Assembly: GCF_042453785.1 (NCBI RefSeq) | Contig: NC_091675.1 | Location: 53,792,501-53,856,500, forward strand | DNA: 64,000 nucleotides | Direction: 5' to 3' | DNA from: Malus domestica | Taxonomy: Eukaryota > Streptophyta > Magnoliopsida > Rosales > Rosaceae | Shown: positions 8,538 through 56,328 of the stretch, piece by piece | Layout: each line of letters begins with the position of its first letter | How positions within the stretch are numbered: position 1 is the stretch's first letter | Made by a program: the position numbers and the translations under genes | Notes under the pieces: generated by a model | What the model was told of the DNA's origin: nothing | The model's input: the letters and a program-made list of their open reading frames with translations, nothing else | The model's database searches: none

Positions 8538-8825
8538 ATGGATTCAACGACCAATGAAGGAGCCTCTTCCTCTTCGTCTTCTTCTTACATCCATTCATGG
8601 ACACAGTGGCGAAGCTAGAAATTTTCAGAGGGAGGGGCGAAATTTAAAAGCGTAAACCGTTCAAAGCAATGTAGCTTACCTTTTAGATAGTACACAATAT
8701 TAATATCGTTCATTATTTATCAATATAAACAAATTACAATTGTTGCCAATGAGGTTTCATGCTACGAAAATGTCACATCTAGGCTCATTACCAATAAAAG
8801 AAAAAACATCTCTCTCAATTAAATC

Positions 8826-9062: not shown

Positions 9063-9510
9063 ATCCTCAATATTAGGAACATTAATATTATTTTTCTCAC
9101 AAATTTTTATACATTATGAAACAAATTCTCAAAGTAATCATCTCTCAAGGATTGAAAAAAAAATGAAATAATTTAAATTCTGGAAACATAACAAGAATTA
9201 AAAAAGACCAATAGTAAGCATCAACCTCTTGTTTTTCTTTAGTCTAAACAAATGAAAGAGAGGAAAGAGAATTGAAATGGTGGAAACAATAATCAATTAA
9301 AAGCATAGTCCGGTTGGAAAAAAGTCCACATCAATATAAAATAAAAAAATAAAAAAGAAATTAAAGGATCCCACCGTCAAACCGCACCGTTTAGTTAAAA
9401 GTAACCAAGTTTTATGACTAATAACCAAAAACAGGCAAACGACGCTGTGTGGTTTGAAACAAAATTAGGTCGTCTTCTTCCCTTGAAATCATTAAAACCC
9501 AACGGTGCAT

Positions 9511-10011
9511 TGTAAGATTGTGAATGATAATGAATGTTGTATTGGATCGTTTTGTTGTAAGCCACTTGTCTATCAAGTTGTTAGCAACCAAAGTGATCCG
9601 ATAGTCCTAACATAATAAGGATTATGGAGTCTAAACCTTTGCAATTGACTTAAAGAAATCTGATGGATTTCACTACAAAGATATAGTATCATGGTGGGAC
9701 TTAAATACTTAAGTGATAGGATTTGATTTTCACAACCAATAATAGGCCGGCTGTGATTAAACCCTAATGATATAAATACTATGGTTAAGTCCCTGCTTCC
9801 ATACGCTCAATCTCTAAAAATACGCTAAACCCTATTCACAGCAGAGAGATATTTTGAAGTACTGGAAGTAGAAGACGACCAAGAACTCTGCAATGTCTTC
9901 CGTATTCTACAAATAAGTTTAATATAATTAGTCGATCTCTATTTTATATATTGATTTGATTTATTCGTGATCCTAATGTCTTGTTGTTGTGATTTCAGAA
10001 TATGTCTTACA
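9511..10011 (+). repeat. 5' LTR of the LARD-type element
   Basis: 501 bp with TG...CA ends. A TATA-like TATAAATACTATGG (around 9770) with transcribed-leader-like sequence after it could act as the promoter. Matches 14772-15272 at all but one position by visual comparison. Confidence 0.92.
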
Positions 10012-10601
10012 TGTGGTATCAGAGCCGCACAACAAGCTTAGGGTCCGATATAAAGGTATAAGCAAATTTGTTTATTGAAGATGATTCACATACTAAAGAA
10101 AATTTGCTTATCGTTTTGGTTGGATGCCTTCTACTGTTCCATCTCATGAAAATTTGTTTTGATGCTTCCGCAATTTTGTGTTGGTATGCAATCATTTTCA
10201 TGGTTAATAACATATGGATTGGTCTAGGGGTGACTATGCATACTGCTGCCTTTAAATAGTTTTCATGAAATTTAATTATTTATTTTTCTTGTTGGCTCTC
10301 ATTTAATTATTAAGAGTGGGTTTGTTTTGGTTTGATTAATCGTGCTCTTGTGATATGATTCTGGGGTTTTTCTTGCTTCCGCGGTTTTTTTTTTTTTTCT
10401 TCTTGAATGGATATGTTAACCTTGTATTGCCGAGAAGATTGTGTCATCTATGTTGTGTTTTCTGCAAAATTTTTCTTGCAATTTTTTTTTATCACGTTTA
10501 CCTGGGCATCAAGATAAACTGAAATTAGGTATACAACTCCAACTAGGTTTGTTGTATGCGACTTTATGGACTGCTATTTGATAATTATGAATTGATAATT
10601 C

Positions 10602-10638
<37 letters not shown>

Positions 10639-10754
10639 AGGTCACTATTGTTTTCGGTGAACGATGACCTAATCTTATCTTGGGTAATATTTTGATTTAT
10701 TATATAATTTTCTGATTATTAATTTAGTTGATAAATATTACCGGTTCCTATTTG

Positions 10755-10788
<34 letters not shown>

Positions 10789-13700
10789 AAAGGGTTAAAA
10801 CATGCGAACAGTAAAGAATTTCTCCCCCGTGTGAGGGTTTCTGTTCATCAATGCCTAGCTTACACCAACCTCCTTCAATCACTGTAATGCTCGAATTGAA
10901 GCTTGAAATTTCGGGGTATTCATGCGAAGGTATGAAACTGCTTTTCATAAATTATTGCAATTTGGTTGAATTGAAATTAAGCTTTTGGTTCCAATCGAAT
11001 TGATTTTGTGATATTATAATTGAGAAGTTGAAAACTATCATGTTGTTTCTGAGCAAATATAGTGTTTTCATTTGGGATTAATTCAATTTTGCAGTTTTCG
11101 ACTCTTATCCTTATAGTGCATATGCAAATGAATAAGTAAGTTTTAGTTCTTGGTTATTTCTCTATGAAGTGATAGTCGCTTCTATTATTGCAATGAATAT
11201 TACTTTTAGTATTCTTTGAAATCGATTGTCCGTTTCAATTATGACATAGAAAAGAATAAACATTCCTTAAGTGTTTTTATGTGACTGATGTAATTTTGAT
11301 ATGAAAATCATTCAGATCAATAATTTCCGTTTGATAAGACTTCCCTAACATCAATAACATATAATATTTTGTCATGTAAATGGATTTTAGACGCTGGTAT
11401 TTTTTCACGTTTTTTGGACCAGAAATGGATTTATGGTAAATTTTTAAGTGTGATACCTTAGTGTTGGAATTCTGCAGACTTCCGCAGAATAGTCTGCTTG
11501 TGATATTATTTTGAAATATCTATGTGACTCATAAATTCATGAAATTTTAGTATGATATACATTGAGATATTTATTTCAAATCTGGAAATTTTGACGAGCA
11601 TTGGTTTAAAAATGAATTATTGGTGAATTTTTAATCTCGGGACTGTCTTGCAGAATTTATGAGGTTTCTGCAGAAAATTCCATTTCGATTTTATTTTTAG
11701 CCCACTTTTAAAATCGCATAAATCATGGAATTTTGGGTAACAATAAATTTACATGTCTACTTTATTTCTGCAAATTTTCATACACATTGGAGGAAGATTG
11801 AAGTTTTGGTGAATTATTTAGTCTCGGGTATGTACTGAACATTTTCTGCTGTTTCTGCAGCACCTCTCTTTTCAAATTCATTTTTGGCTCGCTTATAAGA
11901 TTTTAAAAATCATGAAATTTTGCAAAATAGTAGTCATATATGTCTAGTTCATACTTGAAAATTTTCATGACAATCTAAAGAGAATTGAGTTTTTAGTGAA
12001 TTTGCAAACTAAAGTAGTACTGCTGAATTTTGGTACTTCAAACTAGTTTTGTTATGTGATATTGTTTGACTGATTTGTGTACATCAATTGGTACCAATTA
12101 TTGTACAAGTTTATGGTTCCAATATGTCCTTATGTTATGCAAATTCTCAATACTAATGAATTTTATAAACAACACTGATTAAATTTTGATTTAAAGATGT
12201 ATTGGTTTGTTTTGTTTAAACCAATGTTTTGTTTGGTCTTCAATTCTGATTATGATGATAATTGTCTTTTGAGAAAATTGGAAAGTGGAATTAGTTTACT
12301 AATTGATCATTTTGGTCCCTATCGAATAACTGAATAACCATGTTTCTTCTTTTGAGAACTCTATTGTTCAATGTCAACAACGACATACTTTTTGTGTCTG
12401 ATTGAATCTTTTGAGAATCATTGAATATCCAACAAAACGGTTATTTAATACTGTTCTAAAAGATTATTTTGAAAAATCAGAATTCTAATTTATATGGTGA
12501 ATACTTTTGTCCCAATGGGAAATTCAGGAAATCACTCACCAATTATAAATTAGTATTATAACAAATCATAAAATACTTTTAACATATGTTCATCTAGCCA
12601 AAGCTGTTGAAGCTATATGTATTTTGTGTATTTTATGTTTTGGCTAGCTATGCAGGTATTTTATTTGCATGATTAGTTTCTGCCCAAAGGTGTAACAATC
12701 ATGCAAATTGGAGTTGGTTCGATCCTCCACAACTCAACTACTTCCATGATGAATCTTGCAGAATCGAGAATGAGTAGGTAAATTTGCCAATCTTTTGCCT
12801 TAATTTTCAGTGAATTCTAAATTGGATTAAAATTATTGTTGAAAAAGTTGATGTTGTTGAGATATCTATGTGTTTACTTTTATCGACTTTGTTTTAGAAT
12901 TAAAACATAAATTTTGAGTTTGGATTCTCTTATTAGGTTTCATTTTACTTTATGACCTAATCTTTAACACATATGTGGGTCTTCTCTCATACACTAAAAT
13001 AAATTTTGTAGCCATTGGTTTATCTAATCACTTGTCACTTTTAGATCGATTAATAATGTTGAGATATTGTTCCTTTTATAAGCCTAATTTTGATACATGG
13101 ATACATATAGATTGGTTTATTATGTCCAAACCAACTATTTTGTGACTCAACAAATTTGTGTAAGAAATTTTAATGTTTTGGGCATATTAGAGGTTATTTA
13201 TCTAATGAAATGAACCTTTAATTTATTTAAGAAATTTTTGTGTTTTGAGCATATTAAAGATTGTAAATTGGTTTTATTTAAATTATGATTAAATCTAAAA
13301 TTTTGGTAGAGCTTGGGAAATACTGATGGAGTTTTTACATACCTTGCAACAAATCCTATTTGATTACAATTTTGATAAATTTTCTAACTCCAAACTTTGT
13401 AAAAATTTGTCATCTTATATTATTAATGGATTGTGTACACTATCTTTATTGATTCAACTAGCCTATATTTTGTTATATGAAAACCACTTTCTCTAGTGTT
13501 TAATCTTGCAATTTTGAGTGTTTGCCCAAGTGGGAGAAATAATGTATTATGGGCTTCACACTCATCAATTTTGCATGCTTTTAATGATCATAGTTTTGGT
13601 AGATAAAACGTACATTATCATACTTGTTTATATTTTATTTGTTACATATGCAACTAATCTTGTAAGAAATTCAAGAAGGGTTAATGAGTATATTCTGCTC

Positions 13701-14771
13701 AAAAGTGTTTTGCTTATTAATTCTTGTATGTTGTTCAAGAAATTGAACTTGTGATTTATATGTTATTGATGAATAATTAATCTGCTCAAAAGTGTTTTCT
13801 TATTCAGTACAACTATAAATCAATGTATAGTGAAGCATGGAATTGACAAGATTGTATATACTTCATCTGCTCAAAAGTGTTGAAGCTATATATGTTTGCC
13901 CTTGTATTTTATGTTTTAGCTATGCAAACCTAATATAATTAGTTTCTGTCCAAAGATGATTCTAGAATTATATGCTTTTGATGCATTAGAAAACATTCAG
14001 TTAAAGTTTTCTATTTCTGTCAATTGTTAGATGAACAAAACTGACCAAATAATTTTGTATAGTTTTTCAGTCATGAGAATCACTTCCCTACAAATATCTA
14101 AAATAAAGATGTTGAGCTCATAAATTTTATGTTTTAGATCCCATGACTAATGTTTTGCTAATGGGAGTATTTGAAAGGTGTCTGTTTCATTTTATAGGCA
14201 TTTATAAAGTTTTTTTTTACTCTCTTAATCAGTGGGAGTAATAATTTGTTTATCTCTACTAATCAGTGGGAGTAAGAGATTACCTTTTGTGTTAAAAATT
14301 TGAAGTGTTAGTGGCTGATATTTTAAGAGTAAATTTTGTTTAAGTTTTGTTCATAAGTTTTAATAAGAGGTTCTCATTTTGTAAATAGTATGCCGTATTT
14401 TACTCGTTCTCTTATCATATTCTAAATTGACAGAAAAGTTGGATGTTGTTACCAACGTTGTTGAGTTCTTTTATGAACTACTTTTGTACTGAAATATATT
14501 TTCATATTTTCAGTTCGACTATTGTGAGCTAATGTTTTGACTATTAGCTCTTGACACCATGACTTAGATAGCAACAAAGTGCTTTAAGTTGAATGTGTAT
14601 GTGATCTTGGAGTGCAAGGAACAGACCAAATTGTTCTTTGTTTTCTTTGGTTCTGCATTCGATTCAAAGTGACAGGTTGCTAGGAAAGGTTATTGCATAC
14701 TTATGAAGACTCAGTGATCACCATGAGTTCTTATTTTGTTAGGATGAATCATTGACATTCAAGTGGGAGAA
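10012..14771. other. Non-coding interior of the LARD-type element
   Basis: AT-rich sequence without a recognisable gene. It holds a (TA)n run (about 10605-10635), a ~28-base A run (about 10758-10786), three degenerate direct repeats of roughly 200 bp between 11400 and 12020 (each with ATCATGAAATTTT- and TCTGCAGAA-like words), and repeated CTGCTCAAAAGTGTTTT words at 13696, 13781 and 13867. The words AATCAGTGGGAGTAA near 14227 and 14260 echo the terminal purine tract. Confidence 0.7.
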
Positions 14772-15272
14772 TGTAAGATTGTGAATGATAATGAATGTTG
14801 TATTGGATCGTTTTGTTGTAAGCCACTTGTCTATCAAGTTGTTAGCAACCAAAGTGATCCGATAGTCCTAACATAATAAGGATTATGGAGTCTAAACCTT
14901 TGCAATTGACTTAAAGAAATCTGATGGATTTCACTACAAAGATATAGTATCATGGTGGGACTTAAATACTTAAGTGATAGGATTTGATTTTCACAACCAA
15001 TAATAGGCCGGCTGTGATTAAACCCTAATGATATAAATACTATGGTTAAGTCCCTGCTTCCATACGCTCAATCTCTAAAAATACGCTAAACCCTATTCAC
15101 AGCAGAGAGATATTTTGAAGTACTGGAAGTAGAAGACGACCAAGAACTCTGCAATGTCTTCCGTATTCTACAGATAAGTTTAATATAATTAGTCGATCTC
15201 TATTTTATATATTGATTTGATTTATTCGTGATCCTAATGTCTTGTTGTTGTGATTTCAGAATATGTCTTACA
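14772..15272 (+). repeat. 3' LTR of the LARD-type element
   Basis: Second 501-bp LTR, with the purine tract at 14761-14771 just upstream and TSD TGCAT just downstream. Confidence 0.92.
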
Positions 15273-15922
15273 TGCATCACACCAAACCCAAATACCCGTC
15301 GGTTCAGAAGATCGGAGGAGCGGAATCCTCACTCTCAATGGTGATTTCCGACGACCGTAAGGGCTGGATTTTCCAGCAAGGGGAGGGCCTGAACCTGCGC
15401 TCCAGCTGTGTTTTCCGGCGAGGGGAGGGGCGGCCGCCACTCCTCGCCCTCACGTGGCTTCGCCACTGCATGGACATATGATGTCTTCCTCAGTTTTAGA
15501 GGAGAGGATACCCGCAACAATTTTGTAGGTCATCTGTACAAGAATTTGGTTCAGAAGGGAATCAAAACCTTCATAGACGAAGAGGCGCTTCAAAGAGGAG
15601 AGGAAATATCGTTGGCGCTTCTCAAAGCAATCGAGCAATCGAGGATTTCTCTTGTTGTCTTCTCAGAAAACTACGCTTCCTCACACTGGTGCTTAGATGA
15701 ACTCGTTCACATCTTTCACTGTAAAGAACAACTGCAGCAGATGGTTTTTCCAGTTTTTTACAAGGTGGATCCATCGGATGTGAGGAGGCAAAGAAAGAGT
15801 TTCGGTAAGGCACTTGCTGACCATGAAAGCAAACTCAAAGATAACATGGACAAGGTGTTGAGATGGAGAGAAACTCTTACGAAAGCAGCAAATTTGTCTG
15901 GCTGGTCATTCCAGGCAGACGG

Positions 15923-17158
15923 GTATTTTTCTGACCTCTATGTACAAATAAACTTCAATTCATAAGCATAATATGAAGGCTTTTTAGCCAAAATGGTTTT
16001 TCTGAGATGAGCATAACTCTTTACTTTGTTCTTCAAGATTTAAAATCGATAGAAGTGGTTCTTGAGATTGTCCATCGTCAATCATTTTAGTTATTCCGTG
16101 AAAAAAAAATATTTGTTAAATTGAGTGTATTTTTGTCAAATCAATCGCTTCACTTGAACTGGTGGTTTCTCCAGTTTAGTTGAGATTTCTCACAGAATGA
16201 CCAAAGTGATTAACGGTGGACACTCTCAAGAACCACTTTTATCGATTTTAAATTTCAGTGACCAAAATGAAGAGTTATAAGAATTTCAGCAACTATTTTA
16301 GCTAAAAAGACTAATATAAATATATAATATTTGAGAAATGCTAAGGAAACCCTCTCAAAGTGGAACTCTCTTCATGAGCTCTCTCACACCTCATAGTTTA
16401 ATGTTAGTTTCCTTGCCAACATTATAAAATATTGTGGCAAAAAATGAGGTGGCAAAAAGTTCATAGAGAGTATCACTTTTGAGAAATTATCCTCAGCATT
16501 TTTCATAATATTTTGATATTATTCCCTCACAATATTATAGGAAAACTTGTTTAAGTTATTCATTATTAGTATGTGAAGCAAACACATATTGGAGAATATA
16601 ATCCCACATCGGTCATATGATAAAATAATATACAACAAATATATGAGAGTTTGCACTCCTAATAGAGAATTTTTGTAGTAAAATCTAATACCGAGTAGTA
16701 GGAGATTAAATTGAGACACTATTGGTATTCTTGATGGTAAATCATGTTTGGCCTATAAAATTTATCAACACATAGCTAAACGCCATTCATCCATACTTAA
16801 TATATAATGCCAACAACCCATTTAGGGTCACGGACTTCACCAAAAAGAATGCCCCCCCTCTCCAAATAAAAAAGTTCAAAACCAGTCGAAATGAATGCAT
16901 AAAATAGTGCAGAGGCAATTTTGTCATAAAAAGAATTTTTTTATTGTTTTTTTATGATTAGTATCTTACTATTACGTGGAATATTCAGGAGTTTCTTCTA
17001 GCATGGTCTAATATTATTCATTTAATCCAAATGTTTGACTTTCTTTTTCTTAAGTAGAGTTGTCTGTCTGCTCTTGAAATATTGGTTACATGGAACATCA
17101 ACGGATTTCTTCTAGTTTAATTATAATAATGTTCTTTTTTATGCTTTTAAACTTGTAG
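15923..17158 (+). other. Intron 1 of TIR1, with two ancient hairpin elements
   Basis: Flanked by GG|GTATTT and CTTGTAG|G. It contains a foldback sequence (about 15975-16312) whose two arms, each over 100 bp, pair around CACTTGAACTGGTGGTTTC. A second inverted element follows (about 16335-16505, ends AATGCTAAGGA / AATGCTGAGGA). Both occur in the introns of TIR2, TIR3 and TIR5, so they predate duplication. Reading on from exon 1 gives a stop at 15963-15965, so a retained intron would encode a TIR-only protein. Confidence 0.75.
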
Positions 17159-17631
17159 GCATGAATCTAAATTTATTCAAAAAATTGTTGAAGATATTTC
17201 GGTCCCAGTTTTAGATAGTACCCATTTGAATGTGGCAAGGTATCCAGTTGGAATAGAGTCTCGCCGTTCCTCCGACGCCGCACCGCCCGCAACTACCGCC
17301 AATTCTGATCAAGACCGAGATCGGGATAGAGAGAGAGACCGAGACCAAGATCGAGATCGCAGTCCTTCAAAGGTGCTGCTTCCGCCCTCGCTTTCTTAGC
17401 TGGAAGATTTGTAGGATTCGCTTTCTTATGTATGCTGTGTTACTGATTGGTTTGGTGATGCAGGCACAAGATTTCAGGCAGCCGGAACCTCAGATAAGCA
17501 TGAAGACTTGTTTGCAGAAGAAGTTTGAAATAGTTTGCAAATTCTTATTCGTTTTGTGTTGGATCATCTTCTTAGTATTTTGGGTCCGTGGCGCCGCACG
17601 CATCGGTTTTTTTAGCGAGTTTTTTCAATAA

Positions 17632-19869: not shown

Positions 19870-21880
19870 ATGGATTCAACGACCAATGAAGGAGCCTCTT
19901 CCTCTTCGTCTTCTTCTTACACCCATTCATGGACATATGATGTCTTCCTCAGTTTTAGAGGAGAGGATACCCGCAACAATTTTGTTGGTCATCTGTACAA
20001 CAATTTGGTTCGGAAGGGAATCAAAACCTTCATAGACGACGAGGCGCTTAAAAGAGGAGAGGAAATATCGGCAGCGCTTCTCAAAGCAATCGAGCAGTCG
20101 AGGGTTTCTGTTGTTGTCTTCTCCGAAAACTACGCTTCCTCAGAGTGGTGCTTAGATGAACTCGTTCACATCTTTCACTGTAAAGAACAACTGCAGCAGA
20201 TGGTTTTTCCAGTTTTTTACAAGGTGGATCCATCGGATGTGAGGAACCAAACAAAGAGTTTGGGCAAGGCACTTGCTCACCATGAAAGCAAACTCAAAGA
20301 TAACATGGACAAGGTGTTGAGATGGAGAGAAACTCTTACAAAAGCAGCAAATTTGTCTGGCTGGTCATTCCTGGCCGACGGGTATTTTTCTGACCTCTAT
20401 GTACTAATAAGCTTCAATTCATAAGCATAATACGAAGACTTTTTAGCCAAAATGATTTTTCTATGATGAGCATAATTCTTTACTTTGTTCTTTAAGATTT
20501 TAAATCGATAGAAATGGTTCTTGAGATATCCATCGTCAATCATTTTGGTTATTCTGTGAAAAAAAATCTCAATTTGTTAAATCAATCACTCCACTTGAAC
20601 TGGTGGTTTCTCCAGTTTAGCTGAGATTTCTCACAGAATGACCAAAGTGATTAACAGTGGACACTCTCAAGAACCATTTTTATCGATTTTAAATTTCAAT
20701 GACCAAAATGAAGAGTTATAACAATTTCAGCAACTATTTTAGTTAAAAAGACTAACATAAATATATAATATTTGAGAAATGCTAAGGAAACCTCTCAAAG
20801 TGGAACTCTCTTCATGAGTTCTCTCACACCTCATAGTTTAATGTTAGTTCTCTTGCCAACATTATAAAATATTGTGGCAAAAAATAAGGTGGCAAAAAGT
20901 TCATAGAGAGTATCACTTTTGAGAAATTATCCTTAGCATTTTTCATAATATTTTGATATTATTCCCTCACAATATTATAGGAAAACTTGTTTAAGTTATT
21001 CATTATTAGTATGTGAAGCAAACACATATTGGAGAATATAATCTCACATCGGTCATATGATATAATAATATATAACAAATATATGAGAGTTTGCACTCCT
21101 AATAGAGAATTTTTGAAGTAAAATCTAATACCGAGTAGTAGGAGATTAAATTGAGACACTATTGGTAATCTTAAAAGAATTTTTTTTATGATTAGTATCT
21201 TACTATTACGTGGAATATCCAAAGGTTTCTTCTAGCATGGTTTAATATTATTTATTTAGTCCAAATGTTTGACTTTCTATTTCTTAAGTAGAGTTATTTG
21301 TCTGCACTTGAAATATTGATTACATGGAACATTCACGGATTTCTTCTAGTTTAATTATAATAATGTTATTTTTTATGCTTTTAAACTTGTAGGCCTGAAT
21401 ATAAATTTATTCAAAAAATTATTGAAGATATTTCGGTCCAAGTTTTAGATAGTACCCATTTGAATGTGGCAAAGTATCCAGTCGGAATACAGTCTCGTGT
21501 CAAACAATCCAGTTCGGTTTTTTTGGATCTTGGATCTGCTCCTGTCCTCGATCGCGAGCAATTCGAGAGAGACCGAGATCGAGATCGCAGTCCTTCAAAG
21601 GTGCTGCTTCCGCCCTCGCTTTCTTAGCTGGAAGATTTGTAGGATTCGCTTTCTTATGTATGCTGTGTTACTGATTGGTTTGGCGATGCAGGCACAAGAT
21701 TTTAGGCAGCCGAAAACTCAGATAAGCAGCAAGATGAGTCTGAGGAAGAAGTTTGAAATAGTTTGCAAATTCTTAACCGTTTTGTATTACATCATCATCG
21801 TAGTACTTGTGGCCAGACACCACGATTTTTTTAGGGAAATTTTTATAGAAAGTATAATAAATTTACCTAAAGTTGTCTAG
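19870..21880 (+). CDS. TIR2: TIR domain - linker - VAMP72-like membrane tail
   Basis: Predicted exons 19870-20381, 21393-21600 and 21692-21880 give an open 302-codon product. The TIR domain (about residues 21-165) shows YDVFLSFRGEDTR, the BB-loop region FIDDEALKRGEE and SSEWCLDEL with the putative catalytic Glu97. Plant TIRs cleave NAD+ to make immune signals; activity here is inferred. Exon 2 supplies PEYKFIQKIIEDIS (the region before NB-ARC in TNL proteins) and a short D/R repeat. Exon 3 starts AQDFRQ and ends in a hydrophobic helix (about 264-281) plus 21 residues. The start at 19870 was chosen because MDSTTNEG is conserved; an upstream ATG at 19864 is private to this copy. No NB-ARC motifs or LRRs exist. 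Its upstream region is CMC4 intron sequence, not the W-box segment of its relatives. Splicing is predicted, not shown. Confidence 0.78.
20382..21392 (+). other. Intron 1 of TIR2
   Basis: 1011 bp, GT-AG, with the same foldback element (about 20425-20755) and the AATGCTAAGGA element (about 20778-20945) as the other copies. Readthrough from exon 1 stays open to 20424, so intron retention would give a TIR-only protein with 14 extra residues. Confidence 0.75.
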
Positions 21881-22784
21881 TCCGCTTAAGTGCCCCTAGC
21901 CGCCTAGGCACAAGGTTCTAATCCATCGCCCTACTAGCGCCTATCGTCTTTTAGAACTTTAGTTATATTAGTGGTGGGAGTTAAATAGGCGTATGCCTAG
22001 CCTATGGAGCTCGCGAAATAAAGGGATAATTTTTATTTTGTATTTCATTTTTTTAATAAAATGAAAGAGACTTTTGAATACTTCGATGAACATTTATTAT
22101 ATGGTTGCTCACTATGTTTTCAGTCGGTTCTAATTTTTTATCATTTATGTTATTTTAATTTGCAATGTATGTATCTCAATACAATTATGTATTTTAAAAC
22201 AGACCTCGTTATGCACTATCGGCTTGGTAATTTGAATCAAATCCACACCATCTCAATAAAATTCCAATCCATCCCAATACATTTGGGTCAAAAGATGAGT
22301 TGCAAAGCATAGTAAAGACATATTTTGGCCCAGTGGGTTTCAAATTTTTTTGGCCCAGCCCTTTATCAAAAATGAATTTTGTATCAAAACGGATTATGTT
22401 TTGACATATAGTCATTTGGCCGGTTCTGTTGGAAATTGCCTTAGCTTTGTTATTTTAGGCTGACATCATAGTGGCTTTTAAGTGAAAATGATTCGAAAAT
22501 GGTTCAATTTTCACATTGACCCTCTACTCTACCCTTTACAAAAGTTCACAAAATTTACATTAGCAAGAAAGACACACCAAAACCAATACGCGCTAAAATT
22601 ACCGTAAACTCCCTCCATGACAACTCTAACTGGCACAATTTCAACGAAGGTAATATATCTCCCAACCCAAATGATATAATAAAGTAATTCCGGATATAAA
22701 TGATAGAAAAAGTAAAATGAGACATAATATAGAAAGGTAAAATTAGAAATTTTGTGGAACTAGAGGAACACTTGTTTCAATTGT
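21881..22784. other. TIR2 3' flank and CMC4-upstream-like sequence
   Basis: No gene. 21881-22330 matches the other TIR 3' flanks. 22440-22770 matches the sequence upstream of the intact CMC4 gene (57975-58290 plus 58970-59070, for example ATTACCGTAAACTCCCT). This places a CMC4 promoter-like region next to the following TIR remnant. Confidence 0.65.
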
Positions 22785-23969
22785 ATTCATTATTAGAATG
22801 TGAATCAAACACATGTTGGAGAATGGGATTTCACATCCGTCATAATCACATGACAAAATATGTGCTATTAATATATGGAAGTTTCAACACCTAATATCAA
22901 CGAGATTTTTGTAATAAAATCTAACACCTAGTAATAAGAGATAAAATTGAGACAATATCATAATGTTGATGGTGGACTATGTTCCACCTATGAAGTTTAT
23001 CAACACATAGCTAAATGTCATTTATCTAAATATAATAATGTTCTTTTTTTGGCCTTTAAACTTGTAGGCATGAATCTAAATTTATTCAAAAAATTGTTGA
23101 AGAGATTTCGGTCCAAGTTTTAGATAGCTCCTATCTGAATGTGGCGAAGTACCCGGTTGGAGTAGAGTATCGTGTCAATCAATCCGGTTCGGTTTGTTTC
23201 GATTTTCGATATGCTCCTGTCCTCACTTGCCAGCAATTAGAGCAGTTCCAGCCTTGCATATAGGCCGGGGGACAGGGGAGAAGAAAGGGCCCGAGGGCCT
23301 GTCAATCACGTCCAGCCTTGAAGGGCCCGAGCTCGTGGAGAAGGCCCGAGCAGGGGCCTGTCAATTTGTGACAGCCCCGGAGCCCGAGCTCCATGCCCAT
23401 TTTTTATTTTTTTCTGTCAGGCGCGTGCACCCCACTCGCGAGTGGGGGCGCGTCGCCCGACCAGTTTTCAGAAAAGTCAGCCGACTTTTCAGACAGAAAA
23501 GTTACCGTTGGGAAGACACGTGGCTTCCCACGGTCCGTTCGATCTCAACGACTCCTTCATTTGGACCGTTGAATCTCAACGGTAAAAAAAAAAAATCTAA
23601 TTTAATATCAACCGTTCGATCTGAGATCAACGGTCGATATTAATATGCTTTATAAATAAAGAAAAAATAGTTTTAAAATTAAGAAAAGTTACCGTTGTGA
23701 CACGTGGCACAATCTGGAGTGTTGGAATTCAAATTTTTTTAAATCCAACGGCAGAGATTAATTATTTGAATAAAAATTAAAAAAAATGGAAAAAATCCGA
23801 AAAAAAATTGTAAAAAATCTGAAAAAAAATTGTAAAAAATTGTTTTTACTTTTCTATAAATACCACTTCTTCTCCATCTACCTTACACCACAATTTCATA
23901 TTTTCTCAACTACTTTCAATCAAATTCCTATCTTTCTCTCAAAGTTTCAATCCAATTTTTTTCCACAAA

Positions 23970-28068: not shown

Positions 28069-28260
28069 GCCATCCAACGCCATCAAGAACAAACCGAGGA
28101 TCAAAAGGGCCACCAGCACCTTCCCCTCTCCAGTCTCTCCCACCCGTGTCGTTCCTCTGACGCCGCACCACCCGCAACCACCACCAATTCTGACCGAGAC
28201 CGAGACCGAGACCGAGATCGGGATAGAGATAGAGACAGAGATCGAGATCGCAGTCCTTAA

Positions 28261-28640
28261 TCGTGCTGCTTCCGCCCTCGCTTACTCAGGTGGAAGATTT
28301 GGTAGTATTGGCTTCGATCACTGTCGCAGTCCTTCAATGGTTGCCATTGTGGCTGCTTTGATCCTTAAAAATTGTATTTTGATTTGAGTTTTGACAGTGG
28401 TTTCTGTGCACACATCTGTTTATTTTAGGTGATGACAAAATTACAAAATGCATGTAATTTTATATTAAAAGAATTTTTGGGACTAGAAAAACTCACAGAT
28501 ACATTTCAGCTTTTTTCTGGAGAAAATTCTCCTCTTCTTTGCCACAAGTCTTTGAGTTTCAAACCCGAGATTTCCAGTTTTTAGTTTTAAAAAAGTCTCG
28601 TAATTCTCCATTTATCACTGAACCACCGGCTAGTAATTGG
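28261..28640. other. Unassigned sequence after the headless TIR remnant
   Basis: It starts with a degraded copy of intron 2 (GTGCTGCTTCCGCCCTCGCTT at 28263) and a short unrelated reading frame. No gene or element seen. Confidence 0.5.
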
Positions 28641-37257: not shown

Positions 37258-39413
37258 ATGGATTCAACGACCAATGAAGGAGCCTCTTCCTCCTTGTCTT
37301 CTTCTTACACCCAGTCATGGACATATGATGTCTCCCTCAGTTTTAGAGGAGAGGATACCCGCTAAAATTTTGTAGGTCATCTGTACAACAATTTGGTTCA
37401 GAAGGGAATCAAAACCTTCATGGACGATGAGGCGCTTAAAAGAGGAGCGGAAATATCATTGGCGCTTCTCAAAGAAATTGAGGATTCGAGGATTTCTCTC
37501 GTTGTCTTCTCCGAAAACTACGCTTCCTCAGAGTGGTGCTTAGATGAACTCGTTCACATCTTTCACTGTAAAAAGCAACTGCAGCAGATGGTTTTTCCAG
37601 TTTTTTACAAGGTGGATCCATCGGATGTGAGGAACCAAAGAGAGTTTCGGTAAGGCACTTGCTGACCATGAAAGCAAACTCAAAGATAACATGGACAAGG
37701 TGTTGAGATGGAGAGAAACTCTTACAAAAGCAGCAAATTTGTCTGGCTGGTCATTCCTGGCCGACGGGTATTTTTCTGACCTCTATGTACTTGCAAACCT
37801 ATCATTCAAATGTAAAATAAGTGTATTATTTGCTTCAATTCATAAGCATAATTTGAAGGCTTTTTAGCCAAAATGGTTTTTCTGAGCATAACTCTTTATT
37901 TTTTTCTTTAAGATTTAAAATCAATAGAAATGGTTCTTGAGATTGTTCATCGTCAATCATTTTGGATATTCTGTGAAAAAAAAATTTCTATTAAATTGAG
38001 TGTATTTTTGTCAAATCAATCACTCCACTTGAACTGGTGGTTTCTTCAATTTAGCTGAGATTTCTCATATAATGACTAAAATGATTGACGATGGACACTC
38101 TCAAGAGACACTTCTATCGATTTTAAATTTCACTGACGAAAATGACGAGTTATAACAATTTTAGCAACTATTTTAGTTAAAAAGACTAACATAAATATAT
38201 AATATTTGAGAAATGCTAAGGAGACCCTCTCAAAATAGAACTCTCTCACATCTCATAGTTTAGTGTTAGTTCCCTTGCCAACATTCTAAAATATTGTGAC
38301 AAAAAGTTCATGGAGAGTCTCACTTTTGAGAAATTATCCTTAGCATTTTTTTCATAATATTTTGATATTATTCCCTCACAATTTATAGGAAAACTTGTTT
38401 AAGTTATTCATTATTAGTATGTGAAGTGAACACATATTGGAGAATATGATCCCACATCGGCCATATGATAACATAATATACCACAAATATATAAGAGTTT
38501 GCACTCCTAATACTAGCAAGAATTTTTGTAGTAAAATCTAATACTGAGTAGTATGAGAGTTTTTATGATTAGTATTTCACTATTATGTGGAATATCCAAA
38601 TATTTTTTTTAGTATGGTCTAATATTATTCATTTAGTTCAAAAATATTTGACTTTCTTTTTCTTGAGTAGAGTTGTCTGTCTACACTTAAAATATTGATT
38701 ACATGGAACATCCACGAATTTCTTGTAGTTTAATTATAATAATGTTCTTTTTTATGCTTTTAAACTTGTAGGCATGAATATAAATTTATTCAAAAAATTG
38801 TTGAAGAGATTTCGGTCCAAGTTTTAGGTATTACCCATTTGAACGTGGCAAAGTACCCATTTGGAATAGAGTCACGTGTCAAACAATCCAGTACGGTTTT
38901 TTTGGATCTTGGATCTGTTCCTGTCCTCGATCGCGAGCAATTAGCCCTCCAACTCCGTCAAGGACAAACCGAAGATCAAAAGCGCCACCAGCACCATTTC
39001 CTCTCCAGTCTCTCCCCCTCACGCCGTTCCTCCGACGCCGCACCGCCCGCAACCACCGCCAATTTTGATCAAGACCGAGATTGGGATAGAGAGAGAGACC
39101 GAGAGAGAGACGGAGATCGAGAACGCATTCCTTTAATGGTGTTGCTTCCGCCCTCGCTTTCTTAGCCGGAAGATTTGTTAGGATTCGCTTTCTTATGTAT
39201 GCTGTGTTACTGATTGGTTTGGCGATGCAGGCACAAGATTGCAGGCAGCTGGAAAGTCGGATAAGGAGGAAGAAGAAGGATCTGATAGTTTTGGGATTCT
39301 TAACCGCTTTGATGGTCATCATCGTTATAGTTAGAGCAAGTCCACCCCTGTGGACTTTGCGCCAACACCCAGCGCATTTATCCACTCAAATGAACAGTAA
39401 CAGACTCCAATGA
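37258..39413 (+). pseudogene. TIR3: TIR - linker - VAMP72-tail pseudogene
   Basis: Exon 1 (37258-37767) has a TAA at 37363-37365, right after FRGEDTR-type sequence, and a 2-bp loss near 37640-37648 (AGAGAGTTTCGG against AGAGAGAGTTTCGG in TIR5) that shifts the frame. Exon 2 (38772-39138, 122 codons plus the split codon) and exon 3 (from 39231: AQDCRQLESRIRRK, then a hydrophobic stretch) stay open. The end of exon 3 is cut by a Harbinger insertion at 39334, which adds ~26 foreign codons up to 39413. Exon 1 decay against intact exons 2-3 suggests TIR function was lost first. Confidence 0.88.
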
Positions 39414-40173: not shown

Positions 40174-40575
40174 TAGGAGTGGTGGCAGCTTGATAGGCGT
40201 CCGCCTAGCCAATGGAGGTGGCGAAAAAACGATATTTTTTTATTTTTTATTTCATTTTTTCAATAAAATCGAAGAGACTTTTGAATACTTAGAGCATCTC
40301 CAAAAAATATGTTAAATATAATAGGTTAAAATTTTATTTGATGGTTGATGTGATAAATTGAATACAAGTGCTTTTTTTTTTTACCCAATGAATGTATCAA
40401 ATATTTATTTTATTATTTTATTGGGCCTAAAGTTACATTAACTATTAAAAAATAATAAAAAAATATTGTAGTTTTATTTTATTGGTTGTTAATGAGACCC
40501 ACGTATTAAAAAATTCAATTAAATATATTTGATTCCTTCTTTGTTTGTTGTAAAAAAAAGACAGCTAGAAAGTAA
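40174..40575. other. TIR3 3' flank with truncated MITE, left member of a tandem duplication
   Basis: Matches 44693-45094. The MITE that is complete at 44818-45191 is cut here at 40575, where exon-2 sequence (ACCGAAGATCAAAAG) starts again. This is the tandem-duplication junction. Confidence 0.88.
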
Positions 40576-40755
40576 ACCGAAGATCAAAAGCGCCACCAGC
40601 ACCATTTCCTCTCCAGTCTCTCCCCCTCACGCCGTTCCTCCGACGCCGCACCGCCCGCAACCACCGCTAATTTTGATCAAGACCGAGATTGGGATAGAGA
40701 GAGAGAGAGAGAGACCGAGAGAGAGACGGAGATCGAGAACGCATTCCTTTAATGG

Positions 40756-43700
40756 CAAGGACGGAGCTACCATGGGCCTAGGGGCGGATGCCCCCACTGA
40801 GATTTTTCTGATGCTGACTCTTTTGCGGGATTGATTCTCAGAGGACGAGTACTGTGTGCTGCCTTATGATTGCCATCCTCATTATATGGCATAGAATAGA
40901 TTGACATTCGAGCCCATATTCATTGATTAATTTTTCCTTTTCCAGATTAATCCCTATCTTCTTCACCCTGAGATGAATATCATCAGCAGTTCGTTGGTCC
41001 TACAAAGCGTCGTGCACCAACATTTATCTTGTCTCCACCTTTCGGCTTTCACATTAAGCTTATAGTTTGACAAATGTCCCAGCGAAAGATAATTTTCATC
41101 ATGCTGGCATGCTGCTCAAACTGATCGGGTTTTGCAGCAGCAGAGGCAGAGCCCCCACTGATATTTTTCTGGTTTTGCTCTCCGATCTGGTTCTGCAAAA
41201 GCAGAGCTAGGTTTTATTTTTTTTTTAAATCCAGGCCAAAACGACGTCGTTTTGGTCCTGGTATAAAAAAAATAGTAAACGAAACGGCGTCGTTTCGTAT
41301 ATGTTTGAAAAAAATAAAAGGTATGTTATAGTGGGGGACTGCTTGTCCCCACCCGGTCCACCCCCATTCCATTATTTCCATCTTTCCGTTTCCTTTGCCA
41401 ATCAGAGAGCAGCTCTTCACCAATTCCCCAAATTCCAAGCAGGCAGCAGCAGAAACGGAACAGAACAGAAGCAACAAAGGTGTTGTTCCCAGGCTCCCAG
41501 CCAACCACGCGCAGCCAGCCACTCACCAGCCAGCCGCTCTAGTCGACATATATATATTTAGGTAATTTTTTTAATTTCTAAATCTATAATCCCTAACCCT
41601 AATTAATTATTTAAGATGAATTTTTGTTTAATTGGTATAGAAATATAGAATCATATGGTAATGCACTAATATGGTTATTGGTTATTGATATGAATTCTAT
41701 GATTATTGATGAATGAAATTATGAAATTACAAATTCTATGAATATGGGTATACATTTATTCATATGATTAGTTGAATTAAATGTTTATTTGTTGAATAAT
41801 TTGTATGTTTATTGGTATTGCCATATTGGTTATTGGTTAATTGAATTGTTGCCTTGGTTGGATATGGATTAGTTATTAAGTATATTAATATAGTATACTC
41901 TAGGATTAAGAGTCTAAGAATTTTATTGAGATTTTTATTCTATAAATTCTACAAATTACGTATGAACCTTATTTGTTATTGGTATCAATATGATTGACTT
42001 TGCAGACTGAAACATCATGGAGAGGTTTTTTAAAAAAAAATATTAGTGCCGCCATCCCCAGTTATTGAGAAAAATTATGATACTCAAGGACAAGATAGTA
42101 CATAATTTATTTTATCAAATCTTCCATTAGATCCTGGTAAGCGAATTCGAATTTTGGATTACAATCCTAATATTCGAGATCAAGTACGAAGAGCGTATGT
42201 GCTAGCTGGTCCTCAACAACCTAAAACCCATAATTTTCCTTACAAGAAATATGGAGACACGCAAAGACGATTCAACCCTGCTTGGTTTGATGATTTTCCT
42301 ACTTGGTTGGAATATAGTGTAGAAAAAGATGCTGCCTTTTGTCTGTGTTGCTACCTTTTTAAACCAAACATTGGAGAACAAGCAGGTGGTGATTTCCTTG
42401 TTGGCGAAGGATTTTCTAACTGGAAGAAGAAAGAAAGACTTCTAACTTATATTGGAGGCGTCAATAGTGCACACAATCAAGCATGGAATAGTTTTGAAGC
42501 TTTAAGGAGTCAAAAGCAACATATCCAATCTTTTTTCTCTAAAACTCATGATGAAGCTCGGATTCAATATAGGGCTCGGTTGAATGCATCAATCGATTGT
42601 TGTCGATTTCTTTTGAGACAAAGACTTGCATTTCGTGGTAATGATGAATCTGAACATTCAAGCAATCATGGGAACTTTCTTGAGCTTCTACAGTTTCTTG
42701 CCAACCATAATAAGGATGTGAAAGCCGTTACTTTGAAAAATGATCCGGAGAATCACTAATTGACATCACCAGATATTCAAAAAGACATTGTAAATGCTTG
42801 TGCAACTGAGACCATCAGGGCTATTATTAAAGACATTGGCACTTCGTTGTTTTCTATTTTGATTGATGAATCTCGCGACGTATCAACAAAGGAACAAATG
42901 GCTATTGTATTGCGTTATATGGACAAGAATGGGCATGTCATTGAGCGCCTTATTGGCATTGAGCATGTTACTAGTACCGCTGCTCTCTCACTCAAGGAAA
43001 CCATTGATGAGGTATTTTCTAGGCATAAATTGAGCATGTCTAGGTTGCGTGGGCAAGGTTACGATGGGGCCAGCAATATGCAAGGTGAGTTCAATGGTCT
43101 TAAAGCTCTAATTATGAAAGAAAATGGTTGTGCTTATTATATTCATTGCTTTGCACATCAACTTCAATTAGCTCTTGTAGCTGTGGCAAAGAAGAACATC
43201 CAAATTGAGTCTCTTTTAGTATAGTTACTATTTTGGTAAATGTTGTTGGAGCTTCATCGAAGCGTTGTGATCTTCTTCGAGAGAAGCAATCTATTGCAGT
43301 TATTGAAGCACTAAACAGTGGTGAGTTTACAAGTGGGAAAGGCAAAAATCAAGAAACTACTTTGAAACGTGCTGGAGAAACACGTTGGGGTTCACATTTG
43401 GGTACTTTAGTAAGTATAATGACTATGTTTTCATCCATACTTGATGTACTTGAAGTAATAGCAGATGATGGAGTAAGCTCTCAACAAAGATGTGAAGCGA
43501 ATAATTTATTGGATTCCATGCAATCATTTGATTTTGTGTTTAATCTACACTTGATGAAAGATATACTAGGAATAACCAATGAATTGTCACAAGCATTGTA
43601 AAGGAAGGATCAGGATATTGTAAATGCCATGAAGTTGGTTGGAGTTTGTAAGCAAAGGTTGGAGATAATGAGGAAAACTGGTTGGGATTCTTTACTTAGT

Positions 43701-44487
43701 GAAGTCTCAAAATTTTGTCTTAAACATAATATTGATGTGCCTAATATGGATGATATGTTTCTTTCTCAAAGGCGAGGGCAACGAAAAGCACAAGCAGTCA
43801 CAAATATGCATCATTATTGTGTTGGGATATTTTATGTTGTTTTGGATTGGCAGCTCCAAGAACTAAATAATCGTTTCAATGAGACCAACACTGAGTTACT
43901 TCTTTGTTTGGCATGTTTATGTCCAGCTGACTCCTTCTCTGCTTTTGATAGCCAAAAGCTATTGCGTCTTGCCCAGTTTTATCCTAAAGACTTCTCTTTG
44001 AATGAGCTGGTGATACTTAAGATTCAACTTGAGACTTACATTGTGGATATGCGATCTAGCATTGAGTTTTCAGGTTTAAAAGACATTGGAGATCTTGCAA
44101 AGAAAATGGTTCACTGCAAAAAGCACAAGGTGTATTCGCTGGTTTACTTGTTTTTGACATCCAGTTGCTACTGCAACCGTTGAAAGAGCATTTTCGGCCA
44201 TGAAAATTCTGAAGAATCGATTGAGAAATCGGATGGGAGATCAATGGATGAATGATAACATGATTATTTTTATAGAGAGAGAGATATTTGATGGTATTGA
44301 TAATGATGTTGTCATGCAACGCTTTCAGAACATGAAAACGCGTCGAGGGATATTGTAAGGGACTGTTGTATGAAAAACTTTCTGGATTAATATACAAGTA
44401 TGTGTTTAGTAAATTCTTGAGCTTTTTAATTATGACTTTATTATTTGATGATGCCCTCATTCACACAAATCTCTGGCTTCGTCCCTG
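40756..44487 (+). mobile_element. hAT element (TTF-type) with decayed transposase
   Basis: 8-bp TSD TTTAATGG at 40748-40755 and 44488-44495; the unduplicated site is seen at 39132-39139 in the sister copy. Ends CAAGGACGGAGCTACC and, inward from the right, CAGGGACGAAGCCAG. A leader of ~1.3 kb precedes the transposase frames. Confidence 0.94.
42154..44358 (+). pseudogene. hAT transposase, TTF zinc-finger/DUF4371 type, decayed
   Basis: The frames in order: the TTF-type zinc-finger region (RRFNPAWFDDFPTWLEYS, FCLCCYLF; 42154-42759); a TAA at 42757-42759; the DUF4371/RNase H-like core (SILIDESRDVSTKEQ, GQGYDGASNM, IHCFAHQLQLAL; 42760-43224); stops and a shift near 43220; then 43233-43601 and 43629-44183. 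The last part includes LQELNNRFNETNTELLLC. The hATC dimerisation segment (TVERAFSAMKILKNRLRN) lies in a different frame at about 44170-44358. At least three stops or shifts and an apparent internal deletion make it non-functional. Confidence 0.9.
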
Positions 44488-44817
44488 TTTAATGGTGCTG
44501 CTTCCGCCCTCGCTTTCTTAGCCGGAAGATTTGTTAAGATTCGCTTTCTTATGTATGCTGTGTTACTGATTGGTTTGGCGATGCAGGCACAAGATTGCAG
44601 GCAGCTGGAAAGTCAGATAAGGAGGAAGAAGAAGGATCTGATAGTTTTGGGATTCTTAACCGCTTTGATGGTCATCATCGTTATAGTTATAGGAGTGGTG
44701 GCAGCTTGATAGGCGTCCGCCTAGCCAATGGAGGTGGCGAAAAAACGATATTTTTTTATTTTTTATTTCATTTTTTCAATAAAATCGAAGAGACTTTTGA
44801 ATACTTAGAGCATCTCC

Positions 44818-53360: not shown

Positions 53361-56328
53361 ATGGATTCAACGACCAATGAAGGAGCCTCTTCCTCTTCTT
53401 CTTTCACCCATTCATGGACATATGATGTCTTCCTTAATTTTAGAGGAGAGGATACCCGCTACAATTTTGTAGGTCATCTGTACTACAATTTGGTTCAGAA
53501 GGGAATCAAAACCTTCATAGACGATGAGGCGCTTAAAAGAGGAGAGGAAATATCGTTGGCGCTTCTCAAAGCAATCGAGCAGTCGAGGATTTCTCTTGTT
53601 GTCTTCTCCAAAAACTACGCTTCCTCACAGTGGTGCTTAGATGAACTCATTCACATCTTTCACTGTAAAGAACAACTGCAGCAAATGGTTATTCCAGTTT
53701 TTTACAAGGTGGATCCATCGGATGTGAGGAACCAAAGAGAGAGTTTCGGTAAGGCACTTGCTGACCATGAAAGCAAACTCAAGGATAACATGGACAAGGT
53801 GTTGAGATGGAGAAAAACTCTTACAAAAGCAGCAAATTTGTCTGGCTGGTCGTTCCTGGCCGACGGGTATTTTTCTGATCTCTATGTACTTGCAAACCTA
53901 TCATTCAAATGTAAAATAAGCTTATTATTTGCTTCAATTCATAAGCATAATATCAAGGCTTTTTAGCCAAAATGATTTTTCTGAGATGAGCATAACCTTT
54001 TACTGTTCTTGAAGATTTACAATCGATAGAAGTGGATCTTGAGATTGTTCATCATCAATCATTTTGGTTATTCCGTGAAAAAAATCTTTGTTAAATTGAG
54101 TGTATTTTTGTCAAATCAATCACTCCACTTGGACTGGTGGTTTCTTCAGTTTAACTGAGATTTCTCACAGAATGATCAAAGTGATTGACAGTGGACTCTC
54201 TCAAGAACCACTTCTATCGATTTTAAATTTCAATGACTAAAGTGAAGAGTTATAACAATTTTAGTAACTATTTTAGTTAAAAAGACTAACATAAATATAT
54301 AATATTTGAGAAATGCTAAGGAGACCCCTCTCATAGAAAGAGTCTCCGTGAGCTCTCTCACACCTCATAGTTTAGTGTTAGTTCCCCTGCCAACATTATA
54401 AAACATTGTAGCAAAAAGTTCATAAAGAGTCTCACTTTTTAGAAATTATCCTTAGCATTTTAATTTTTCATAATATTTTGGTATTATTCCCTAACAATAT
54501 TATAGGAAAACTTGTTTAAGTTATTCATTATTAGTATGTGAAACAAACACATATTGGTGAATATTGTGACATCCCACATCGCCCAGGGGAGTGCTTCTTA
54601 AATGTATATTTTCATCCCTACCTAGCACGAGGCTTTTTGGGAGCTCACTGGCTTCGGGTTCTGTAGGAACTCCGAAGTTAAGCGAGAAAAAGGCCAGAGC
54701 ACTTCCAAGATGGGTGACCCACTAGGAAGTTGCTCGTGAGTTCCCAAAAACAAAACCGTGAGGGAATGGTAAGCCCAAAACGGACAATATCGTGCTACGG
54801 TGATGGAACAGGCCCGGGATGTGACAAATGGTATCAGAGCCAATCCCTGGTCGGAAATGTGCCGACGAGGACGTCGAGCCCCTAAGGGGGGTGGATTGTG
54901 ACATCCCACATCGCCCAGGGGAGTGATCCTTAAATGTATATTCTCATCCCTATCTAGTACGAGGTCTTTTGGGAGCTCATTGGCTTCGAGTTCCGTAAGA
55001 ACTCCGAAGTTAAGCGAGAAATAGGCCATAGCACTCCTAGAATGGGTGATCCACTGGGAAGTTGCTTGTGAGTTCCCAAAAACAAAACCGTGAGGGAATG
55101 GTAAGCCCAAAGCGGACAATATCATGCTACAGTGGTAGAGCATGCCCGGGATGTGGTGGACCCGGGCCAGGATGTGACAAATATGATCCCACATCGATCA
55201 TATGATAAAATAATATATAACAAATATATGAGAATTTGCACTCCTAATATTAGCGAGAATTTTTGTGGTAAAATCTAATATTGAGTAGTAAGAGATTAAA
55301 TTAAGACAATATCAGTAATGTTGATGGTGAATCATGTTCGGCCTATAAAATTTATCAACACATAGCTAAACGTCATTCATCTATACTTAATATATAATGC
55401 CAACAATCCATTTGGGGTCACGTGCTTCACAACAAAGAATGGGACACAAATGCCCCCAAACAGAAAAGTTCAAATCTAGCCGAAATGAATGCATATAAAA
55501 TAGTGAATGGGTAATTTTGTCATAAAAAAGAATTTTTTTATTTTTTATTACCTTTTTGTTATGATTAGTATCTTACCATTATGTGGAATATCCAATGATT
55601 TCTTTCTTCTGGTCTAATATTATTCATTTAGTCCAAATGTTTGACTTCCTTTTTCTTGAGTAGAGTTGTCTGCACTAGAAATATTGATTACATGGAACAT
55701 CCACGAATTTCTTCTAATTTAATTATAATAATGTTCTTTTTATGCTTTTAAACTTGTAGGCACGAATATAAATTTATTCAAAAAATTGTTGAAGAGATTT
55801 CGGCCCGAGTTTTAGAGAGTACCCATTTGAATGTGGCAAAGTACCCAGTTGGAATAGAGTCACGTGTCAAACAATCCAGTTCGGTTTTTTCGGATCCTCC
55901 TGTCCAACGCCCTCAAGGACAAACCGAAGATCAAAAACGCCACCAGCGCCATTTCCTCTCCAGTCTCTCCCCCACACGCCGTTCCTCCGACGCCGCACCG
56001 CCCGCATCCACCGCCAATTCTGATCAAGACCGAGATCGGGATAGAGAGAGAGACCGAGACCGAGATCGAGATCGAGATCGCAGTCCTTCAATGGTGCTGC
56101 TTCCGCCCTTGCTTTCCTAGCTGGAAGATTTGTATGATTCGCTTTCTTATGTATGCTGTGTTACTGATTGGTTTGGCGATGCAGGCACAAGATTGCAGGC
56201 AGCTGGAAACTCAGATAAGGAGGAAAATGTGGTTGCAGAGCGGGAGGAAGAAGTTGCTGATAGTTTTGGGATTCTTAACCGCTTTGATGTTCATAATCGT
56301 TGTTGTTGCGGAAATTAAAGCCTGGTAA
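53361..56328 (+). CDS. TIR5: TIR domain - linker/RD region - VAMP72-like tail anchor
   Basis: Predicted exons 53361-53866, 55760-56093 and 56185-56328 give an open 327-codon product. TIR domain: YDVFLNFRGEDTR, the BB-loop region FIDDEALKRGEE, SQWCLDEL (Glu95 as putative NADase residue). Exon 2: HEYKFIQKIVEEIS and KYPVGIESRV as in the TIR/NB-ARC linker, then a polar stretch ending in alternating Asp/Arg and SPSM. Exon 3 (281-327): QDCRQLETQIRRKMWLQ, matching the end of the VAMP72 SNARE motif and its juxtamembrane RRKMW, then a hydrophobic helix (~304-322) and five residues. Such an end is typical of tail-anchored proteins, so the TIR would face the cytosol on a membrane. Most of the SNARE motif and the longin domain are absent, so SNARE activity is not expected. 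TIR5 is the best-preserved copy. Splicing is unverified. Confidence 0.8.
54565..55179 (+). mobile_element. Cassandra TRIM retrotransposon in intron 1 of TIR5
   Basis: Two LTRs (54565-54826 and 54897-55179) start TGTGACATCCCACATCGCCC and contain a 5S rRNA-like block (ACTCCGAAGTTAAGCGAG, GATGGGTGACCCACT), the hallmark of Cassandra. Between them lie the primer site TGGTATCAGAGCC (54829-54841) and a purine tract CTAAGGGGGGTGG. TSD AATAT at 54560-54564 and 55180-55184. The right LTR is ~20 bp longer (extra GGACCCGGGCCAGGATGTG near its end). It has no genes and sits in the same sense as TIR5. Confidence 0.96.

Follow-up and report, generated by a model that had tools for sequence, protein, structure and literature searches.

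Between positions 53361 and 56328 of a 64,000-nt stretch of Malus domestica DNA (referred to as a whole as the window), a TIR exon is followed by a linker exon and by an exon whose translation resembles the C-terminal end of VAMP72 R-SNAREs, which raises the question of whether these exons form one gene, where the last of them originated and what the product might do. An earlier note had described this exon set in four genes (TIR1, TIR2, TIR3 and TIR5) and had proposed that a VAMP72 fragment was captured by a TNL-derived gene in place of NB-ARC and LRR. For TIR5, the claimed exon order, coordinates and motifs held throughout: three exons make up the gene, and their joined product is identical over 327 of 327 residues to the deposited Malus sylvestris protein P0001, which is named "disease resistance protein RPV1-like" and is, like all deposited proteins of the family, a prediction.

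Structure and product of TIR5

The features of the gene are as follows.

53361..53866, plus strand: TIR5 exon 1, with start codon and complete TIR domain (PF01582, E=9e-57), ending in GACGG before GTATTT
53867..55759, plus strand: TIR5 intron 1, whose splicing gives the deposited P0001
54565..55179, plus strand: Cassandra-like TRIM in intron 1, with two LTR-like repeats, a small core and AATAT on either side
55760..56093, plus strand: TIR5 exon 2, a TNL post-TIR stub from HEYKFIQKIVEEIS to YPVGIESRV, then an alien linker with a DRDRDR repeat; ATG precedes the donor GTGCTG
56094..56184, plus strand: TIR5 intron 2 (91 nt), its donor weak by eye
56185..56328, plus strand: TIR5 exon 3, VAMP72-derived, with the end of the SNARE motif, juxtamembrane RRKMW, membrane helix and stop codon TAA

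The encoded tail consists of AQDCRQLETQIRRKMWLQ, a 19-residue hydrophobic stretch (Kyte-Doolittle 3.12), five further residues and the stop codon at 56326-56328. As read from the DNA, a transcript that keeps intron 2 would meet a stop at 56118-56120 and yield a protein without the tail. A second open frame of 156 codons (55858-56325) was also observed, running from the linker through intron 2 into the tail without a break. The LTR-like repeats of the intron 1 TRIM lie at 54563-54823 and 54895-55155 with 89.7% identity, and the element is a gap in the three other aligned TIR copies; the family name Cassandra and the 5S-rRNA likeness of the repeats are our presumption, and Rfam gave no hit at gathering threshold. 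In the AlphaFold model of TIR5 the TIR has a mean pLDDT of 36.9, and values of 70-90 are reached by the tail helix alone.

Exon 1 encodes a full TIR domain, matching PF01582 with 192.2 bits (curated cut-off 21.3), and a TIR match at E<=1 was obtained for all eight members of the deposited family described below. The nearest solved structures are RPV1, ROQ1 and RUN1. The glutamate of the WCLDEL motif (residue 95) aligns with a RUN1 position occupied by Glu in 6o0w and by Ala in 7s2z, which we take to be that of the catalytic glutamate of TIR NADases. On these features of domain and conserved Glu, TIR5 is a plant TIR protein, for which NADase or cell-death activity may be inferred. Downstream of the TIR, the first half of the exon 2 stub weakly matches RPV1 and RUN1 (E=0.03-0.05), and the remaining stretch up to YPVGIESRV is presumably of TNL type; beyond this point exon 2 departs from TNL sequence. 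Pfam matches to NB-ARC and LRR at E<=1 were absent from all eight family members, which, without an NB-ARC core, are by sequence neither TNLs nor NLR-ID fusions. The proposed replacement of NB-ARC and LRR is thus upheld as far as their absence goes, but the capture was not confined to VAMP72 sequence: about 75 residues of exon 2, including the DRDRDR repeat, resemble neither TNL nor VAMP72, so that the captured DNA exceeds the VAMP72 exon. A word search with this linker returned 64 candidates, eight of them at E<=10 and all from Malus or Pyrus; as to the source of the linker, these eight of 64 were only Malus/Pyrus TIR proteins or the remnant of one.

The tail exon and its relation to VAMP72

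The relation of exon 3 to VAMP72 was assessed with a tail profile. The best 120 of 1989 VAMP721 matches were listed; 115 protein records with AQDFR gave 79 distinct tails, those of 40-60 residues entering the profile. Every stop-to-stop ORF of the window with at least 20 aa, 1994 in total, was searched with it, the 2121 ORFs of the reversed window serving as control. The five tail copies of the window took ranks 1-5 (TIR5 E=1.4e-12, TIR2 3.4e-4, TIR3 3.1e-3, a copy at 44587 0.03 and TIR1 0.073), followed by the next window ORF at E=0.11, and the reversed window reached E=0.39 at best. When the profile was extended 40 residues upstream, the values were 2.1e-11 for TIR5, 3.6e-5 for TIR2, 1.5e-4 for TIR3, 1.1e-4 for the 44587 copy and 0.012 for TIR1, as compared with 0.97 for the next window ORF and 0.10 for the best of the reversed window. 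The TIR5 tail scored 48.3 bits against a maximum of 16.2 over 6988 scored shuffles of deposited tails, and 27 of its 46 residues are identical to those of a Malus VAMP72 tail (P0084); TIR1 and TIR2 share 15/46 and 20/46 residues with Malus VAMP72. The reading of exon 3 as a fragment resembling the last exon of VAMP72 is borne out by these scores, and, judged by its sequence, the derivation of the TIR5 tail from VAMP72 is certain; a chance or out-of-frame match is ruled out for TIR5 by the profile ranking, the reversed window and the shuffles.

For other copies the signal is fainter. The seven deposited tails scored 48.3, 40.0, 29.0, 18.3, 17.1, 13.6 and 8.3 bits, two of them not above the shuffles, and two of the five window tails, TIR3 (15.0 bits) and TIR1 (11.7 bits), likewise do not exceed the best shuffle, so that their VAMP72 origin rests on homology to the other copies. 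The TIR1 and 44587 tails would be assigned mainly by this route. Other searches were less sensitive than the VAMP72 profile: the Pfam model Synaptobrevin matched the TIR5 tail with 20.1 bits, below its curated cut-off of 26.4, and TIR5 only over positions 45-87 of 89 (19.1 bits); 3/8 family members matched at E<=1, with a best E of 1.1e-5. Among the Pfam families listed for the eight members there was no longin domain. As far as sequence can tell, the TIR genes share the C-terminal homology of VAMP72 and lack the longin domain and a complete SNARE motif. Direct search of solved structures with the TIR5 tail found only VAMP2 (E=0.081 and 0.15), and direct protein search with it returned five candidates, two Malus TIR-family proteins among them and no VAMP72.

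Capture of a retrogene was considered and judged unlikely, because the captured DNA opens with intron-like sequence ending in TTACTGATTGGTTTGGCGATGCAG ahead of the tail exon.

In all 12 tails examined (10 distinct), the Kyte-Doolittle maximum lies between 2.65 and 3.61 (3.45 in Malus VAMP72), with 1-24 residues following the most hydrophobic 19-residue stretch and, in TIR5-like members, basic residues preceding it. Since the part kept comprises the end of the SNARE motif and the membrane helix, it would act as an anchor rather than a fusogen, and the earlier suggestion to this effect is a sensible one. Alternatively, the VAMP72 piece might be an integrated decoy that baits effectors aimed at VAMP72 exocytosis. 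VAMP721/722 act in defence secretion, TN2, a truncated TNL, is tied to EXO70B1, a SNAP33 binder (PMC4305288), and apple led one survey of NLR-ID fusions with 93 (PMC4759884). A bait of this kind is nevertheless hard to reconcile with the missing longin match, with a Synaptobrevin profile that is matched at its end only, and with the tails of TIR1 and TIR2, which have shed most VAMP72 residues yet keep the hydrophobic stretch; moreover, an association of TN2 with VAMP721 was absent in the BiFC assay reported in PMC4305288. We consider the decoy explanation highly improbable.

Related copies in the window and in Malus and Pyrus

TIR exon, linker exon and AQDxRQ exon are present at TIR1, TIR2, TIR3 and TIR5, with RRKMW in TIR5 only. 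The exon set was therefore correctly described at all four loci, but only TIR2 and TIR5 are intact; TIR1, though its exons are present, has its first exon broken about 22 codons in, where an insertion (8604-15468) separates it from the rest, and to the four named loci a further tail at 44587 and a stray linker at 28073-28314 have to be added.

8372..8603, plus strand: TIR1 5' flank, start and first ~22 codons, severed by the insertion (92% to the TIR5 5' end)
8604..15468, no strand assigned: hAT-like insertion in TIR1 exon 1, with terminal repeats CAGTGGCGAAGC and GCTTCGCCACTG and an 8-bp duplication CATGGACA
15469..17631, plus strand: TIR1 remainder, with the rest of the TIR exon, linker exon 17159-17372 and tail exon from 17464
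19870..21880, plus strand: TIR2, second intact copy (302 aa), exons 19870-20381, 21393-21600 and 21692-21880
22761..23203, plus strand: partial copy, intron 1 end and exon 2 stub, lacking TIR and tail
28073..28314, plus strand: stray linker fragment, no TIR or tail
37258..39413, plus strand: TIR3 pseudogene, exon 2 38772-39138, tail from 39231
40574..44688, plus strand: partial linker and tail duplicate, 40574-40755 and 44488-44688
44587..44709, plus strand: extra tail exon without a TIR of its own

A nested, young LTR-like pair (9511-10013 and 14772-15274; 503 bp, 99.8% identical) lies within the TIR1 insertion. In TIR3, an in-frame stop (TAA) and a deletion of 2 bp lie in exon 1, and the linker and tail duplicate is split by a 3732-bp hAT-like element (40756-44487) with an 8-bp TTTAATGG duplication and a DUF4371 ORF inside. 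The stray linker stops about where VAMP72-intron-like sequence starts in the TIR genes. Two further elements were observed: a Plant_tran transposase ORF on the minus strand (25980-27488), with a NAM-associated ORF nearby (24770-25405), and a Copia-type retrotransposon (30468-35132) whose gag, integrase and RT domains are found in two adjoining ORFs.

The layout is not confined to the window. Eight deposited proteins of Malus and Pyrus (P0001, P0002, P0123, P0124, P0125, P0126, P0127 and P0128) share the linker, in a search that covered relatives with exact words in common and predicted proteins whose length was 0.55-1.75 times that of the query. In seven of the eight the tail is joined on at one and the same place (SPSM, SPSK, SPSE or IPLM followed by AQ), which supports the proposed family layout. 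As the tail family occurs in both genera, the capture would predate the split of Malus and Pyrus, unless it was exchanged later. P0002, a Malus domestica protein of 188 residues called "isoform X2" in one source, corresponds exactly to 37691-37767, 38772-39138 and 44587-44709, which are the last part of the disrupted first exon of TIR3, its second exon and the 44587 tail, with the nearer tail at 39231 skipped; the label "isoform X2" on P0002 and P0127 hints at transcript support without proving it.

The eighth protein, P0124 of Malus baccata, has no tail; its reading frame continues into the intron, which encodes its last residues, VLLPPSLS. This ending, together with the intron 2 donor that appears weak by eye and the common occurrence of TIR-only proteins such as RBA1 in plants (PMC9153377), would fit a scenario in which a soluble TIR-X protein, made with intron 2 retained, is the working product and the anchored form is minor. 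With the tail in 7/8 deposited members and its frame kept, such a division of roles seems distinctly unlikely. The donor may offer a choice between soluble and anchored products, P0124 modelling the soluble form.

The broken copies call for consideration of a further explanation, according to which the family is decaying debris, i.e., truncated copies of TNLs lying in a cluster rich in transposons, with exons strung together by gene finders and a tail that is functionless. TIR1 split by an insertion, the stop and frameshift of TIR3, the partial copy at 22761-23203 and several transposable elements in the window are what such decay would leave. Reading frames in exons 2 and 3, however, have mostly been kept: among pairwise indels of the four aligned copies, those divisible by three number 5/5 in exon 3 and 13/15 in exon 2, the other two being a compensating 38/41 alignment pair, as against 6/43 in intron 1, where it should be considered that the pairs are not independent and that the DRDRDR repeat unit is 6 bp. 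In exon 1 the figure is 3/9, the rest being the edge of the TIR1 insertion and the TIR3 2-bp deletion. Over six pairs, broken copies included, dN/dS of the TIR exon is 0.44-0.58 (0.54 for the intact pair TIR2-TIR5), and values of about 0.5 likewise speak against debris. For the exon 2 stub it is 0.43-1.65, with broken copies among the pairs. The tail, with 0.75-2.83 on only 18-21 synonymous sites, is not clearly below 1, which amounts to no demonstration of purifying selection on its residues and, like the weak-looking intron 2 donor, is compatible with decay. The identical junction in Malus and Pyrus members and the two intact copies in the window speak against it, and we regard debris as an unlikely account of the family.

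The tail exon has diverged strongly. Between TIR1/TIR2 and TIR3/TIR5, divergence is 25-28% in exon 3, 8-12% in intron 1 and 2-4% in intron 2, and 17-19% in the 3' flank (TIR1/TIR2 vs TIR5 only). Exon 3 evolved faster than the introns in the pairs TIR2-TIR5 (p=2e-5) and TIR1-TIR2 (p=7.5e-5), and no significant difference was found for TIR3-TIR5 (p=1.0) or, in TIR2-TIR5, between exon 3 and the 3' flank (p=0.21), because of which the faster evolution may partly be a local effect. Hydrophobicity was discarded as strong proof of selection: when the whole tail was evolved neutrally in simulation, an open hydrophobic tail persisted in 29% of runs at 10% divergence, in 15% at 15%, in 8% at 20% and in 4% at 25%, and hydrophobicity alone is therefore moderate evidence.

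A putative tail-anchored TIR family

Taken together, we consider it fairly probable that these genes represent a tail-anchored TIR enzyme family of Malus and Pyrus, derived from a TNL by gain of a linker and of a VAMP72 end. In this model, a TNL ancestor in the Malus/Pyrus lineage would have been cut short ~36 codons into its second exon, with two fragments taking the place of the lost part, a ~240-bp piece that is now the linker and the 3' end of a VAMP72 intron with the last exon. The product would combine a single TIR, a charged linker and a membrane helix near the end of the chain. Such a protein would be inserted post-translationally into the ER with its TIR in the cytosol, and might stay in ER or Golgi or travel onward to the plasma membrane. 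ER or Golgi would be expected more than the plasma membrane, because ER exit of the phytolongins Phyl1.1 and Phyl1.2 depends on a longin-domain motif (PMC4861013) that is missing from the TIR genes.

With the proteins crowded at the membrane, TIR self-association and NADase-type signalling via EDS1 helpers would set in at a lower threshold. That tethering should favour self-association is expected because truncated TNLs without sensor domains keep enzymatic and immune activity, condensation activating TIR proteins (PMC10972746), and because the TIR of L6 with its N-terminal Golgi anchor is autoactive in a chimera and becomes ligand-dependent when the anchor is replaced (PMC7414095). As a sensor is missing, switching would be left to expression level, to a partner or to splicing of intron 2, whose retention would release soluble TIR-X. 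A more far-reaching version of the model holds that a class of membrane-bound immune enzymes arose from a TNL through capture of the SNARE tail, that a weakly spliced intron selects between soluble and anchored forms, and that the anchor exon has diversified faster than the adjoining introns while still encoding a membrane helix; we put this forward tentatively, as it is somewhat more doubtful than probable.

The proposed family shares features with several known systems. Like TIR-only or TIR-X proteins (RBA1) and truncated TNLs, its members have a single TIR with the conserved Glu, are TNL-derived and lack NB-ARC and LRR, and they differ by the SNARE-derived tail anchor and the charged linker. 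L6 and other N-terminally anchored TIR-NLRs likewise have a TIR tethered to an endomembrane, as would be the case in the apple family, where, however, the anchor is C-terminal and from VAMP72 and an NB-LRR part is absent. With the VAMP72 R-SNAREs (VAMP721/722/727) they have the C-terminal AQDxRQ, RRKMW and membrane helix in common, but neither the longin domain nor the complete SNARE motif. Phytolongins, relatives within the longin family, have also lost the SNARE motif and kept the C-terminal anchor; they retain the longin domain (PMC4861013), which the apple TIR genes lack. As in NLR-ID fusions, a host domain is joined to an NLR-derived gene, although here the NLR core is gone and the added piece would be an anchor, not a folded bait.

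The view that no family of this layout had been described requires some modification, since a review names TIR domains that carry short extra segments, transmembrane regions among them, as a general architecture found in several kingdoms (PMC9153377). The VAMP72-derived C-terminal anchor would be a new version of this architecture: among the literature matches listed, from searches partly aimed elsewhere, no paper reports a TIR with a SNARE-derived C-terminal anchor. Synaptobrevin, SNARE and VAMP are absent from the main text of an inventory of domains integrated into the NLRs of 305 angiosperm genomes (PMC12787737) and from that of a 2016 NLR-ID survey (PMC4759884), and a study of Rosaceae NBS-LRR genes used NB-ARC as query, by which the TIR-tail genes would therefore be missed (PMC9685399).

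The family would exemplify how exon capture gives an immune enzyme a new address. To our knowledge, the cellular site of plant TIR enzymes and the sufficiency of membrane crowding for signalling are not settled, and a natural TIR protein with a borrowed tail anchor and a soluble form from one gene would allow a direct test of both.
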